From: Geomonas subterranea
GTDB taxonomy: Bacteria > Desulfobacterota > Desulfuromonadia > Geobacterales > Geobacteraceae
Direction: 5' to 3'
Length of the DNA: 64,000 bases
NCBI RefSeq assembly: GCF_019063845.1
Contig: NZ_CP077683.1
Coordinates: 3,154,501-3,218,500 of the forward strand
Shown: piece by piece, positions 30,354 through 43,762 of the stretch
How the letters are laid out: every line of letters starts with the position of its first letter
How positions within the stretch are numbered: position 1 is the first letter of the stretch
Notes under the pieces: generated by a model
What the model was told of the DNA's origin: nothing
Seen by the model: the letters and a program-made list of their open reading frames with translations, nothing else
The model's database searches: none
Made by a program: the position numbers and the translations under genes

Positions 30354-30783
30354 TTGGCCGAAGCAGCCCGTAAGCCGGGTTCTGTTCCCGCCACCGGTTA
30401 CCCGGAGGCGGGCGATGATCATTCATCTAGGAGTACCGTTGCCGGCACCCTCAAGCAACCAACCCGGAAGCACGGACGGGCCGTCCTTGGCGCTTCCCTA
30501 TTTGGTCTTGCTCCTGGTGGGGTTTACCTGGCATCCGGCGTCGCCGCCGGACCCGGTGAGCTCTTACCTCACCCTTTCACCCTTACCCCCCTTCGCCAAG
30601 GCTTCGGGGGGCAAGCCCCTTAAGCTTTGGAATTGGCGGGCGGACTTCTCTCTGTGGCACTTTCCCTGGGGTTGCCCCCGCTGGACGTTATCCAGCACCA
30701 TGCCCTGTGGAGCCCGGACTTTCCTCCCTCCACCATCGCCAAAGGCTACGGTGAACAGCGATCATCTGGTCTGCTTCGGCCAA
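30354..30783 (-). ncRNA. rnpB: RNase P RNA (class A)
   Basis: This is the catalytic RNA that matures tRNA 5' ends. On the minus strand the RNA starts GGCCGAAGCAGACCAGAUGA and soon reads GAGGAAAGUCCGGGCUCCAC, the universal P4/J-region signature. It ends ACAGAACCCGGCUUACGGGC followed by CUGCUUCGGCC, which pairs with the 5' end to form P1 (30356-30366 with 30771-30781). A GC-rich stem around 30588-30622 lies in the variable specificity region. About 430 nt, somewhat longer than E. coli M1 RNA. Frames read across this locus are not genes. Confidence 0.93.
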
Positions 30784-39644: not shown

Positions 39645-41150
39645 TTAGCCTTCGTCCTTGACCAGGGCGCCCTTCTTCTCCTGGTACTTGGCGACGATGA
39701 TGCGCTTGCCGGGCTTCAGGGCCACCCGGGTCTTCAGGTTGTTCCAGGCGGAGAGGAGCCTGGCCGTTACGTTGAACCTCTTGGCGAGGGAGGCGAGGGT
39801 ATCCCCCTTTTTGACGGTGTAGTACTTGTGGAACTCCTGGAGCTCCGCCTCGGCCTTGGCCACCTGGGTCGCGGTCCTGGTCTCGGCCTTTGCTTCCGCC
39901 TTGGGTTCCACCTTCGCTTCCGCCGCCGGATGGGCCTCGCCACGCGCCGACGCCACCTGGACCGGGATGGTGAGCACGCGGCCGGCAAGCTTCACCTTCT
40001 TCTTGCCAATGTTGTTCAGTTCGGCGATGGTCTGCTGGCTGGTGTTGAAGCGCCGGGCGATGGAGGCCAGGGTGTCACGCTTCTTGGCGCGGTACTGCAC
40101 GTTCCTGACCCGCTCGACGTAACGCTCCGACTCGGGGATCTTGGCGTATTCGGCGGCGCAGGTGGTGCCGGCCCCTTTGGGCACCTTCAACTGGTACCCC
40201 GGGTAGTCCGGCGGAGTCGTGGCGCGGCGCAGCTCCGGGTTCAACTCCTTGATATTCTGCAGGGGAACGCCGCAGGCCTTTGCCATCACGTCCAGGTCGG
40301 TGCGGGACGGGACAGGCACCTGGTCGAACTCGATCGGCGGGAGGTAAGCGACGTCCGCGAAGCCGAACTTGGCCGGTTCCTTGGCGATGATCGCGGCGGC
40401 GAGGAGCTTGGGGACGTAGTCCTTGGTCTCGCGCGCCAGGTAGCTCCCCTTGGAGATCTCCCAGAAATCGCGGGTATTGTACATGTTGATGGCACGCAGG
40501 ATCTTGTTCTCGCCGGCGTTATACCCCGCCGCGGCCAGGTACCAGTCGTTGTTGAAAAGCGCGTACAGCTCTTTGAGATAAAGCGCCGCGGCGACGGTCG
40601 CCTTCAGCGGATCGCGCCTTTCGTCGATCCAGGGGTCGATCCTGAGCGCGTAGCGCTTGCCGGTCGCGGGCATGAACTGCCAGGGGCCGACGGCGCTCGC
40701 CACCGAGACGGCGTGCGGTATGAACCCGCTCTCGATCATGGCGAGGTAGACCAGGTCTTCCGGGAGCCCTTCCTTCTTCAGCACCGTCTTCATCATCGGG
40801 ATGTAGCGCTCGCTCCTGGAGAGCCACTTGGCGAAGAAGCCGCGGCCGGATCCCTGGAAGTAGCGGGTGAAGTACTCAACCTTGGAATTGAAGGTAAGGG
40901 GGATGTCGGATTCCGGCAACTCCATCTCCGGCAACTTCAATTCGAAGTCGTCCGGATCGGCGTCGACGTCGTCGTTGCCGGGGAAGTCGGCGGAGGTAAG
41001 GCCGAGCCCCTTTGAAAGAGCGAGGTCGGCAGAAGCGAGCTGCTGAGTCTGGGTTTCCTTGCGTCCGGAATCGTGAAAGAGCTCTCCGGGCGCCGCGAGG
41101 GCGAGGCAGGGGGTCAGAAGTGCAAGTATGACAACGGTAACTTTGATCAT
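39645..41150 (-). CDS. MltD-like lytic transglycosylase with LysM domains
   Basis: This secreted murein hydrolase cleaves glycan strands to 1,6-anhydro products. A signal peptide (VILALLTPCLALAA) is followed by an SLT domain. The catalytic Glu is in AMIESGF, followed by AVGPWQFMPATGK and AAAGYNAGENKI. Two C-terminal LysM domains bind peptidoglycan (KKRDTLASIARRFNTSQQTI and KKGDTLASLAKRFNVTARLL), separated by an Ala/Lys/Glu linker. Length is 501 residues. Confidence 0.93.
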   Translation of the reverse strand: MIKVTVVILALLTPCLALAAPGELFHDSGRKETQTQQLASADLALSKGLGLTSADFPGNDDVDADPDDFELKLPEMELPESDIPLTFNSKVEYFTRYFQGSGRGFFAKWLSRSERYIPMMKTVLKKEGLPEDLVYLAMIESGFIPHAVSVASAVGPWQFMPATGKRYALRIDPWIDERRDPLKATVAAALYLKELYALFNNDWYLAAAGYNAGENKILRAINMYNTRDFWEISKGSYLARETKDYVPKLLAAAIIAKEPAKFGFADVAYLPPIEFDQVPVPSRTDLDVMAKACGVPLQNIKELNPELRRATTPPDYPGYQLKVPKGAGTTCAAEYAKIPESERYVERVRNVQYRAKKRDTLASIARRFNTSQQTIAELNNIGKKKVKLAGRVLTIPVQVASARGEAHPAAEAKVEPKAEAKAETRTATQVAKAEAELQEFHKYYTVKKGDTLASLAKRFNVTARLLSAWNNLKTRVALKPGKRIIVAKYQEKKGALVKDEG

Positions 41151-41504
41151 TCAATACCTATTTTTGGGTGACGGCACGCGTACGCACAGGTGCGCAGAAT
41201 AGCGGAATTTGGCACAGTTGTCAATTCAAACGGGTTTTGGCTCCTGCAGGCAAAGGGGCGGCAGCGGCTCCCGCGCGGGGTCCACCTCCTTACCTGGTGC
41301 ATCGGGCGATGCCGGGCTGAACTTTAGAGAGATTCCCCTCTCCCCCCCGGGAGAGGGTGCCCGGAGGGGGGGTGAGGGGTGGTTTCCTGACCCTCCAGCG
41401 CGAAGGCAGAAGGGGAGGGATGAGGACCATCCGGGCCGAAGAGAGAAAACGAAAAAGCCCCCGTGGTCGACGGGGGGCTTTTTTTCATGGGGAGCCCGCC
41501 GCGG
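41151..41504. other. Intergenic region with a palindromic repeat and bidirectional terminator
   Basis: The left part is the upstream region of the transglycosylase gene. At about 41335-41378 lies CCCCTCTCCCCCCCGGGAGAGGG followed by GGAGGGGGGGTGAGGGG (given in two parts), a copy of the GAGAGGG repeat family. The terminator at 41452-41480 follows. No gene is seen on either strand. Confidence 0.55.
41452..41484. terminator. Bidirectional terminator
   Basis: AGCCCCC (41456-41462) pairs with GGGGGCT (41473-41479), with A and T runs on either side. On the minus strand it is 25 bases beyond the candidate 24-codon gene. Confidence 0.8.
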
Positions 41505-41579
41505 TCAGGCGACGGGCCAACTAGGGCAACCTTCCTTGCAGTGGGTCACCGGACGGATCATAAAAAAGTTGGTCCACAT
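41505..41579 (-). CDS. Candidate 24-residue peptide with C-x3-C
   Basis: This small reading frame (MWTNFFMIRPVTHCKEGCPS then WPVA) has AGGAG eight bases before the ATG, a near-perfect sigma-70 promoter about 60 bases upstream and an intrinsic terminator just after the stop: a self-contained transcription unit of roughly 180 nt. The peptide is aromatic-rich at the N-terminus and has two cysteines three residues apart. I do not recognise it. It could be a functional micropeptide, a leader or modified-peptide precursor, or the transcript may act as an RNA. It lies just downstream of the DUF362 gene on the same strand. Confidence 0.5.
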   Translation of the reverse strand: MWTNFFMIRPVTHCKEGCPSWPVA

Positions 41580-41646
41580 GTCGCGATCTCCTTTTCCCTG
41601 GTTGGAATTGCATCCCTCGCTGTGTGGTTCCCGGAGGATGGGAAAA

Positions 41647-41675
41647 AATATAATGGCGCCCCATCCCCTTGTCAA
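41647..41675 (-). promoter_or_regulatory. Near-consensus promoter of the small peptide gene
   Basis: TTGACA (41675-41670), 17 bases, TATATT (41652-41647). Start expected near 41640, about 60 bases before the ATG. Confidence 0.75.
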
Positions 41676-41689
41676 CCTGCCCCGGCGCA

Positions 41690-42826
41690 CTACGACCGGC
41701 GGCCGGTTTTCTTCATCAGCCACAAAAGCCAGCCGTCCCTGAGGGTCAGGGCCGCGTGCGGGCAGAGCTCACGGCAGCAGAAGCAGCGGATGCATCGCTG
41801 GTAGTCGAAACGCAGCCTCCCCCCCTGCACCCGTATCGCCGCCGGGGGACAAGCCTTGACGCAGACGCCGCAGAGTTCGCACGTGCCGGGGACGACCTCG
41901 GGGCGGGAGGTGAACTGGTTTCTGAGCCGGTTCTTCAAGAATCCCGGGAGCCCGAACTGGACGTCGGAAAGATGGGGAAGCCGGAGCGGACGCTCCAGTA
42001 CTGCGTCGGGGTCGGGCCCCAAAACCGTGACCTCCTCGCGCCGCGAACCGGGAAGCCCCATATGCCTCGCGGCGCTCTCCAGGTAGAGAAGCTGCTGCGG
42101 AATCCCGGCCACGCGGGCGGCAACCTGGTCCACGGCAACCGCGTTGTCACCGGCCAGCAGCACGCCCACCGGGCAAGGGTCCCCGCTTCCAGGACCGTTC
42201 CCCTCCATCGCGACCACGGCGTCCACTATGTTCAGATCCGGCTCGCGCAGCCGGTAGAGCTCGATCAGCATGTTCGCGAAGAGCTCCTTGTCCGCCCCCG
42301 CCTTGAGGTGCCAGGCCGCCTTCGCGGTCCCGACCACCGCCCCGAACAGGTTCTTCACGCAGCACGTCATGGTCATCATCTCGTGCGTCTTCAGCTTGGG
42401 GAGGTTGATCAGGCGGTCCGCCTCGATATACGGCCGCGCCAGCTGGAACTCCTTGAAAGTCCCCGCGCCGGCGACGGGGAGGGATTCGGTGAAGGGGACG
42501 AACCGAGCGCCGGTCTCCTCGATGACCGCCATCATCCCCGAGCGCTCCGCCACCCGCCTGCCGCTTCCCACGCCGGGAGAATCCCCCACCAGCGCCACGC
42601 CACCTGCCCGCTGCACCTCCAGGATCACGGCGCGCAACAGCTCCGGATGCGTGGTCACCGCCGCCTCGGGCGGCTTGGCGGAGAGCAGGTTCGGCTTGAT
42701 GAGCACCCGCTCGCCCGGCTTCACGTAGCGCTGCATCCCGCCAAGCGGCTCAAGGAGCCGGGCCACCCCTTCCCGCATCTCTTCGCGCCCGTACCCCGGA
42801 ACCCGCTCCAACGCCACCTGGTGCAT
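41690..42826 (-). CDS. DUF362 domain protein with C-terminal 2x[4Fe-4S] ferredoxin
   Basis: The DUF362 core (residues 1-290) has VLIKPNLLSAKPPEAAVTTHP, LVGDSPG, INLPKLKTHEMMTMTCCVKN and a later G-D-P-C-P-V-G stretch. The C-terminus carries two ferredoxin clusters, CELCGVCVKACPP and CIRCFCCRELCP. Such proteins are predicted electron-transfer or Fe-S enzymes of unknown substrate. ATG 42826 has GGAGG five bases upstream; an open extension further upstream would collide with the divergent recombinase gene and is not used. Length is 378 residues. Confidence 0.88.
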   Translation of the reverse strand: MHQVALERVPGYGREEMREGVARLLEPLGGMQRYVKPGERVLIKPNLLSAKPPEAAVTTHPELLRAVILEVQRAGGVALVGDSPGVGSGRRVAERSGMMAVIEETGARFVPFTESLPVAGAGTFKEFQLARPYIEADRLINLPKLKTHEMMTMTCCVKNLFGAVVGTAKAAWHLKAGADKELFANMLIELYRLREPDLNIVDAVVAMEGNGPGSGDPCPVGVLLAGDNAVAVDQVAARVAGIPQQLLYLESAARHMGLPGSRREEVTVLGPDPDAVLERPLRLPHLSDVQFGLPGFLKNRLRNQFTSRPEVVPGTCELCGVCVKACPPAAIRVQGGRLRFDYQRCIRCFCCRELCPHAALTLRDGWLLWLMKKTGRRS

Positions 42827-42886
42827 CTCATCCTCCCCGTCAAAAGCTATTGTAAACCGGCATCGGCCTGAGGTAGATTGCATACC

Positions 42887-43762
42887 ATGAAACGGGCCAT
42901 CGAGCAATTCTGCGGTTACCTCGAGACCGAGCGCAACGTCTCGCCCCACACCCTCGCCGCCTACAGAAGCGATCTGGAGCTGTTCGCCTCTTTCCTGGCG
43001 CAGCGCGGAGAGCCGCTACCGGAAGCTGTCGATCATCTCGCCATCAGGCAGTACCTTGCCCAACTACACAAGGGGCACGCAAAGAGCTCCATCGGGCGTA
43101 AGCTCTCCGCGATCCGGGCGCTGTTTCGTTTCCTGCTCAGAGAGGGGCGCCTGGAAAAGAATCCCGCCGAGTTGGTCAGCACCCCCAAGAAGGAGAAGCG
43201 CCTCCCCTTTCACCTGAACATCGACCAGGTGAGCGCGCTCGTCGAGGCGCCGGCGGGGACCAGGCTGCCGCTCAGGGACCGTGCCGTTCTGGAAACCCTC
43301 TATTCCTGCGGGATCAGGGTGAGCGAACTGACCGGGATGAACGTGGGGGACCTCGACCTGGACGGCGGTCTGGCGAGGGTGATGGGCAAGGGAGGCAAGG
43401 AGCGCATCGTGCCGGTAGGCTCTTTCGCAAGGCAGGCGCTCTCCTCCTACCTCGCCGAACGCGGCAATCCGGGCGCGGCCGAGCCGCTTATCTTGAACAG
43501 CCGCGGGAAAAGGATCAACAGGCGCAGCGTGACGCGCATCGTGGATGATCATATGCTGCTCATCGCCGCCATGCGCAAGGTCTCCCCGCACACGCTGCGC
43601 CACACCTTCGCGACCCACCTTCTGGAAGGGGGCGCCGACCTGCGCGCCATCCAGGAGCTCTTGGGGCACGCATCGCTCTCCACCACCCAGAAGTACACCC
43701 ACGTCAGCATCGACAAGCTGATGGAGGTCTACGACCAGGCCCACCCCAAGGCGCGCCGCTAG
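42887..43762 (+). CDS. XerC/XerD-family tyrosine recombinase
   Basis: This site-specific recombinase probably resolves chromosome dimers at dif. The N-terminal SAM-like core-binding domain (residues 1-95) contains [18 protein letters not shown]. The catalytic residues are complete: R144 (CGIRVSEL), K168 (GKGGKER), H235 and R238 ([14 protein letters not shown]), H261 (LLGHASL) and nucleophile Y270 (TTQKYTHV). At 291 residues it has the housekeeping Xer length rather than that of an integron or phage integrase. A TTG at 42878 with GAGG at better spacing is an alternative start. XerC and XerD cannot be told apart here. Confidence 0.92.

Follow-up and report, generated by a model that had tools for sequence, protein, structure and literature searches.

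A conserved micropeptide gene of Geomonas subterranea and its order, with an RNA structure behind a Cys-x3-Cys motif

A short transcription unit behind a DUF362 gene

The window, by which we mean the whole stretch of 64,000 nucleotides of Geomonas subterranea DNA that was analysed, carries on its minus strand a compact unit for a very small peptide. An earlier note on this DNA had described a strong promoter, a Shine-Dalgarno sequence, a 24-codon reading frame with a C-x3-C motif and a terminator, and every one of these parts was found. The promoter scan places the -35 box TTGACA at 41670..41675 and, after a spacer of 17, the -10 box TATATT at 41647..41652, which together match 11 of the 12 consensus bases; three promoter-like sites were found in the region 40500-42800, compared with 0.2 expected in shuffles. 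A 5' UTR block (CATCCTCC...GAGGGATG, 41611..41640) is near-invariant in 15 of 16 aligned copies from the genus and altered in L018, and by eye no such block was seen in the second-copy type mentioned below. The CCUCC within this block could pair with the Shine-Dalgarno sequence AGGAG, which lies at 41588..41592. The micro-ORF itself (41505..41579) runs from an ATG at 41579 through 24 codons to a TGA at 41507-41505 and encodes the peptide MWTNFFMIRPVTHCKEGCPSWPVA, which includes MWTNFF and, with the C-x3-C motif, HCKEGCPSW. Hairpin 1 (GCCCGTCGC/GCGGCGGGC, 41494..41517), as given by the best stem and the predicted fold, spans the end of the ORF and starts 8 nt after codon 18. It is followed by an intrinsic terminator at 41450..41483, with a stem at 41476-41458 and a T run, which was found by scan and is kept in the 16-copy alignment. 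Taken by themselves, terminator-like sites do not clearly exceed chance (four found, 2.2 expected), nor does the window transcript stand out in its folding energy (z -1.24). The unit taken as a whole exceeds chance, because the -10 box, Shine-Dalgarno sequence, ORF, hairpin and terminator all align across the 16 genus copies and the peptide occurs in all order genomes searched. This alignment stops short of the -35 box, which is visible in copies that were compared separately.

The upstream gene (41690..42949, minus strand) encodes a protein with a DUF362 and a 4Fe-4S (ferredoxin) domain according to Pfam. As 14 nt separate its end from the -35 box and both are on one strand, the micro-ORF may double as its last cistron. 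The downstream gene (39645-41150), named by eye as that of an MltD/LysM-type protein, has its own promoter-like site at 41224-41196. The same genome carries a second copy of the micro-ORF (G000:C1:1035753-1035821) with the peptide MWTSKFAIRPVSHCKEGCSI; this copy, the hairpin at 41517-41494 and the DUF362 gene 14 nt away are features beyond the earlier note. The window further holds a GC-rich, palindromic, REP-like repeat (CTCTCCCCCCCGGGAGAGGG...) at 41325-41395, with 46 matches in the own genome including itself, and at 30356-30777 the RNase P RNA of bacterial class A, as identified with Rfam.

Conservation and selection of the peptide

All 58 genomes of the order Geobacterales that were searched had a match to the peptide, with best E values per genome between 9.2e-15 and 1.5e-4, and many of them hold two copies. 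The set comprises 19 genomes of the genus, the own one included, 16 others of the family and 23 others of the order. In 32 nearest pairs among 48 copies (44 distinct), 68 codon differences were synonymous and 32 non-synonymous, where random single changes would give 21% synonymous ones, and codons 8-18 showed 46 synonymous versus 4 non-synonymous differences. As the regular expression used to collect copies fixed the RPV and CKEGC codons, this count was repeated free of it. All 125 Geobacterales copies scanned have a GGAG 7-12 nt before the ATG; some of these are one copy present in two collections. The N-terminus is kept as well, with W2 in 46 of 46 and T3 in 44 of 46 rows that were picked by a pattern fixing RPV and CKEGC and leaving these two positions free. 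The earlier note had favoured a real micropeptide over a non-coding RNA and had named a tblastn search with an analysis of synonymous changes among its checks; the universal match in the order, the synonymous excess and the constant GGAG bear it out. Frame-shifting substitutions were not seen, nor was a lack of conservation, though conserved RNA structure is also present. It is very probable that the unit encodes a selected and functional micropeptide.

The length of 24 codons holds for the window and not for the family. Among 97 distinct Geobacterales copies, 58 have 20 codons, 32 have 24 and seven have another length, and the commonest form, of 20 codons, reads MWTxx(F/Y)x(I/L)RPV(S/T)(H/R)CKEGCPS. 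The window copy is without the stop of this form and has four extra residues, which would best be explained by a change of TAG to TGG after codon 20.

Relatives reach beyond the order. A scan of genome_contigs with the pattern V[ST][HR]CKEGC yielded 174 relatives, and the 80 of them that were examined are labelled as Geobacter and its relatives, as Desulfuromonadales, or just as Deltaproteobacteria or Proteobacteria. The profile A1, made from order sequences, detected 21 of 395 phylum genomes at E<=0.01, namely all nine order members and 12 from elsewhere, of which several are weak and two (G226:C25 and G121) probably chance. After eight outside peptides had been added, the resulting profile A2 detected 46 of the 395 genomes at E<=1e-6; 37 of these do not belong to the order, and 8 of the 37 had themselves supplied A2 rows. 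Neither profile had a match in the eight class members that belong to other orders. Outside the order, the peptide usually reads [MV]KRFMIPRVAHC(S/K)EGC, with 18 to about 30 residues and a strong Shine-Dalgarno sequence. One peptide in A2, from G082, is a doubtful relative, as it has Ser instead of the second Cys and no pseudoknot of the kind described below. It was left out of the 40 copies that were collected with flanks (L189-L228; 39 from other orders or classes and L228 from within the order), as were the good matches of G250, G253 and G316.

In these 40 copies, the residue after C-x3 is Cys in 34, His in five and Ser in one, and the first Cys is preceded by His in 39 and by Arg in one. 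At position 13 the order itself often has Arg (20 of 46), so that His is not essential there. An exchange of Cys and His at one position is a pattern frequent for metal ligands and would fit such a role here. Metal binding, which had been offered among other roles, thus gains indirect support from this exchange and from some metal-related neighbours; going by the sequences, we would give about even chances that the peptide is a metal ligand via H-C-x3-C/H. The suggestion of a membrane peptide found no support, the hydrophobic stretch comprising, by eye, only about 8 residues. Nor does the peptide have, by inspection, a stretch able to span a membrane as expected of a type I toxin.

No relative of the peptide was found in NCBIfam or among PDB sequences. 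A Pfam scan with four family peptides returned no family up to E 10, DUF2946 included, although peptides so short can escape profiles. The window unit had no DNA match in plasmids, the consensus peptide of the outside form had no tblastn match in plasmids or phages, and no relative of the peptide was found in viral_contigs. A literature text search on peptide motif strings, including CKEGC with Geobacter, found no paper that was related by its title.

RNA structures behind the second ligand-like codon

In the order, the RNA structure is a hairpin of the form GCCCGYC..GRCGGGC. Compensatory pairs are present in it, in a count that leans toward the structure since the arms were set by best pairing. 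Over the 97 distinct Geobacterales copies, the best stem starts 8 nt after codon 18 in 81, 7 nt in 15 and 4 nt in one. Outside the order, its place is taken by a conserved element 3' of the ORF, GUCC-Y-GRGCA-N-GAC-NNNAAA-C-UGCYC, which can be drawn as an H-type pseudoknot. In all 38 measurable copies among the 40 with flanks, its start lies 8 nt beyond the second ligand-like codon; the two others, L220 without a pseudoknot and L221 with an insertion, were kept in the denominator of 40. The hairpin and the pseudoknot begin at the same homologous place, and the fixed spacing could therefore be plain inheritance without indels.

The proposed pseudoknot was assessed in an alignment (A3) of 38 of the 39 pseudoknots found, with L192 omitted. 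In these 38 sequences 96.7% of the cells pair, compared with 27-44% in slid controls, and both-sided changes occur at three pairs. Against it, the loop helix is backed in these sequences by a single double change (L225) and is broken in L210, seven of the 38 do not form the last stem pair, and the pair types number four, fewer than in shuffles (6.1). A search with the pseudoknot pattern in 26 genomes, 25 with a micro-ORF and G219 without, matched 22 of them at 25 places, 24 of which are at a known micro-ORF. In the 395 phylum genomes, 52 match at 59 places, and the reversed pattern had no match among the genomes listed. In bacteria, this element is thus mostly tied to micro-ORFs. Four of the 59 places (L524-L527) are without a clear micro-ORF, three of them (L524-L526) in three of the eight class members from other orders; the place G275:C96 stood outside those inspected for a micro-ORF.

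The same pseudoknot also follows a second type of peptide, MRWMFPHATHCS(T/A)CGS(M/I)RWS, which occurs in other families of the phylum and has an H-C-x2-C motif (ATHCSTCG). This type is present in 14 loci, namely 13 of L495-L508 (L502 being incomplete) and L529, with a variant motif in L495. Its second Cys (MRWMFPHATHCxxCGS) is farther from the pseudoknot. In two further loci, L371 and L537 (G078, G253), the pseudoknot stands behind yet another tiny ORF (MAHLCSS...) with a good Shine-Dalgarno sequence. Selenocysteine, pyrrolysine and programmed frameshifting were considered by eye on the sequences, and nothing conserved was seen downstream. Rfam 15 at gathering score had no hit at the window unit or in L152-L158. 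It had none for the pseudoknot either in the 20 virus loci scanned, where two tRNAs were all that was found, and looser scans gave sub-threshold matches alone.

The compact H-type pseudoknot recurs in virus contigs (IMG/VR loci L229-L348 and L374-L493) with strict Watson-Crick covariation. With the 3' strand fixed, the loop helix has C-G in at least 120 stretches, C-A in one and U-G in none, and its U-A version was likewise found in at least 120 stretches. Among the 122 matches listed in the U-A search, 77 carry the paired 3' strand. Over all 122, the second stem is A-U in 62, G-C in 15, G-U in one and A-C in none; the remaining 44 have no such strand where it would be expected, and some of these are surely chance matches. 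As a predicted pairing, the loop helix is settled by the virus contigs. In 55 of 152 cases among the matches listed (202 elements), an upstream ORF has its stop codon 6-8 nt ahead of the pseudoknot start. The flanking genes are unrelated, with no family in more than four among the matches listed, as judged from scans of 63 of the 139 proteins upstream and 60 of the 121 downstream. Virus pseudoknots sometimes adjoin tRNA genes, and two virus loci had no match in the phage collection.

Gene neighbourhood, possible roles and known systems

The neighbour survey covered 77 named Geobacterales copies, and a regular expression with the motif fixed chose 77 of the 80 loci behind this survey and behind the genome_contigs part of the length, direction and GGAG/hairpin counts. 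A DUF362 relative lies upstream in 36 copies; downstream, an HlyD/ABC operon follows within 2.6 kb in 46 and MltD in 15. The next gene downstream lies on the other strand in 18 of these 77 copies, in 11 of the 40 flanked copies and in six of eight second copies; it has the direction of the micro-ORF and lies within 350 nt in 56 of 77, 21 of 40 and two of eight, respectively, these genes having been chosen by ORF length, so that some may be wrong. Outside the order, the neighbours, assigned with Pfam on one representative each and partly by eye (BI-1, 'copper' and others), form three groups. One comprises rubrerythrin, an FAD oxidoreductase, a PDZ/Metal_resist protein and hemerythrin, another P-II and a heavy-metal P-type ATPase with HMA and YHS domains, and the third DUF445 with a BI-1-like gene. 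The P-II/ATPase group is found near three of the five C-x3-H copies and near one C-x3-C copy. Heavy-metal P-type ATPase-like genes, some with P-II-like ones, were seen near L215, L216, L220, L225 and L527, that is, three C-x3-H copies, one C-x3-C copy and one pseudoknot without an ORF. With neighbours as mixed as DUF362, MltD, DUF445 and a nucleosidase-like gene, the context does not name a function.

These comparisons show an autonomous-looking unit, selection on its amino acids and a predicted RNA structure that is positioned in two unlike forms. The explanation we consider best is a stand-alone gene that encodes a cytosolic micropeptide of some 20 residues, which would bind a soft or transition metal through H-C-x3-C/H and act in trans, perhaps as a small chaperone, as a buffer or as a regulator under metal or redox stress. 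The RNA structure may pause the ribosome as codon 18 is decoded, in the way of frameshift pseudoknots, which act at a spacing of 5-9 nt, and thereby set the amount of peptide, or alternatively couple peptide synthesis to metal loading. The greater distance of the second Cys in the ATHC type and a spacing that may be no more than inherited speak against pausing, which we regard as a tentative assignment, somewhat short of even odds. The same odds apply to the whole model of a stand-alone metal-binding micropeptide whose synthesis is paced by RNA structure; the mixed neighbours, the frequent Arg at position 13 in the order, the doubtful G082 relative, the four places without a clear micro-ORF and the unexceptional folding energy also count against it.

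The nascent peptide could instead act in cis, sensing a metal or small molecule inside the exit tunnel, arresting the ribosome at the RNA structure and so controlling readthrough into the next gene, in the manner of CutF, CruR or TnaC. The peptide would fit entirely inside the tunnel, the structure stands 8 nt past codon 18, the C-terminal tail and the stop position vary, and many copies have the HlyD/ABC operon or another co-directional gene behind them. An intrinsic terminator follows the ORF, as in attenuation leaders, and the peptide contains no repeated codon run of a regulating amino acid. However, this terminator comes at once, the next gene is often on the opposite strand, above all behind second copies, and downstream genes differ, whereas the N-terminus is conserved along with the motif. 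A co-directional gene to regulate fails as a general rule, though most remaining copies have one. Of the 44 named copies that precede the HlyD operon, 43 have a micro-ORF promoter with a score of 10-11 of 12, and the stretch from terminator to HlyD has a promoter-like site of its own of at least 8 of 12 in 23 of the 44 loci, a count without shuffle control. A leader for one conserved downstream gene was rejected as the general role on account of the terminator and of the opposite-strand or differing next genes. The unit is not an obligate leader, since it has its own terminator and some copies have no co-directional gene behind them, and we consider a cis-acting leader of the sensing kind unlikely.

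That the product is a dual-function RNA, with structured parts that base-pair or bind a protein and the peptide as a second product, would agree with the conserved and covarying 3' part, with the 5' block conserved in the genus and with the pseudoknot in virus contigs, where no peptide relative was found. But the order of the window swaps the pseudoknot for an unlike hairpin, so that no fixed RNA sequence is kept, and selection is clearest on the codons; we hold this reading to be quite improbable. A further alternative is a precursor of a modified peptide, which the earlier note had suggested, or of a peptide-derived cofactor, with its maturase encoded elsewhere. The peptide is of PqqA-like size, its motif is near-invariant, and unlinked maturases are known in principle. 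In the own genome, however, the radical-SAM model of the GeoRSP system (TIGR04303) reaches at best 76.8 bits against a cut-off of 400, and GeoRSP maturation was rejected on this ground. By eye, no recurrent maturase gene was recognised near the copies, a radical-SAM-like gene lying near just two of 14 ATHC-type copies, and NCBIfam and Pfam gave no match. This precursor reading has, in our opinion, only a slim chance of being right.

The stand-alone micropeptide gene adds a family that has no match in the libraries searched, is too short for usual annotation and is present in each of the 58 order genomes searched. A conserved micropeptide gene is a known kind of thing; the link to the pseudoknot would add more if pausing is true. 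The system is a small and tractable test of whether 20-residue peptides can handle metals, and of the role of a stop-codon-proximal pseudoknot in bacteria and phages. As a speculation that we would not expect to hold in full, the peptides may represent ancient phylum-wide metallopeptides of about 20 residues, in which the RNA structure at 8 nt times the ribosome and metal capture sets the peptide's own synthesis, while phages reuse the pseudoknot on terminating ribosomes.

Several known systems resemble parts of this unit. Tunnel-arrest leaders such as TnaC have about 20 residues, C-terminal conservation and an RNA structure just 3' of the ORF. The micropeptide shares this size, the conservation toward the C-terminus and the structure right behind, but it has no obligate downstream gene, a conserved N-terminus and a variable stop position. 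SgrS/SgrT is a dual-function small RNA, a short transcript with a promoter, a small ORF and a terminator; the unit described here has the same layout, whereas selection on it is clearest at the codons. PqqA-type cofactor precursors are likewise conserved peptides of about 20 residues, but no linked maturation genes were recognised near the micropeptide copies.

Other small ORFs with a Cys pair are CutF of Rhodobacter capsulatus and CruR of Bordetella, which are reported to be copper-responsive upstream ORFs of the DUF2946 family with a CxxxC (CutF) or CXXC (CruR) pair, a stall motif, proline-rich or RAPP, some 45 residues past it, and an RNA stem-loop or regulatory spacer behind (PMC9973294, PMC9426467). 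The micropeptide differs in its length of about 20 residues, which leaves no room for a signal peptide, in having no proline-rich stall motif, the window ORF ending 6 residues past the Cys motif, and in its lack of a DUF2946 match in Pfam, its own terminator and the absence of a fixed downstream gene. CutF and CruR are nevertheless the nearest described systems, as they too combine a small ORF carrying a Cys-pair motif with an RNA element that follows it.
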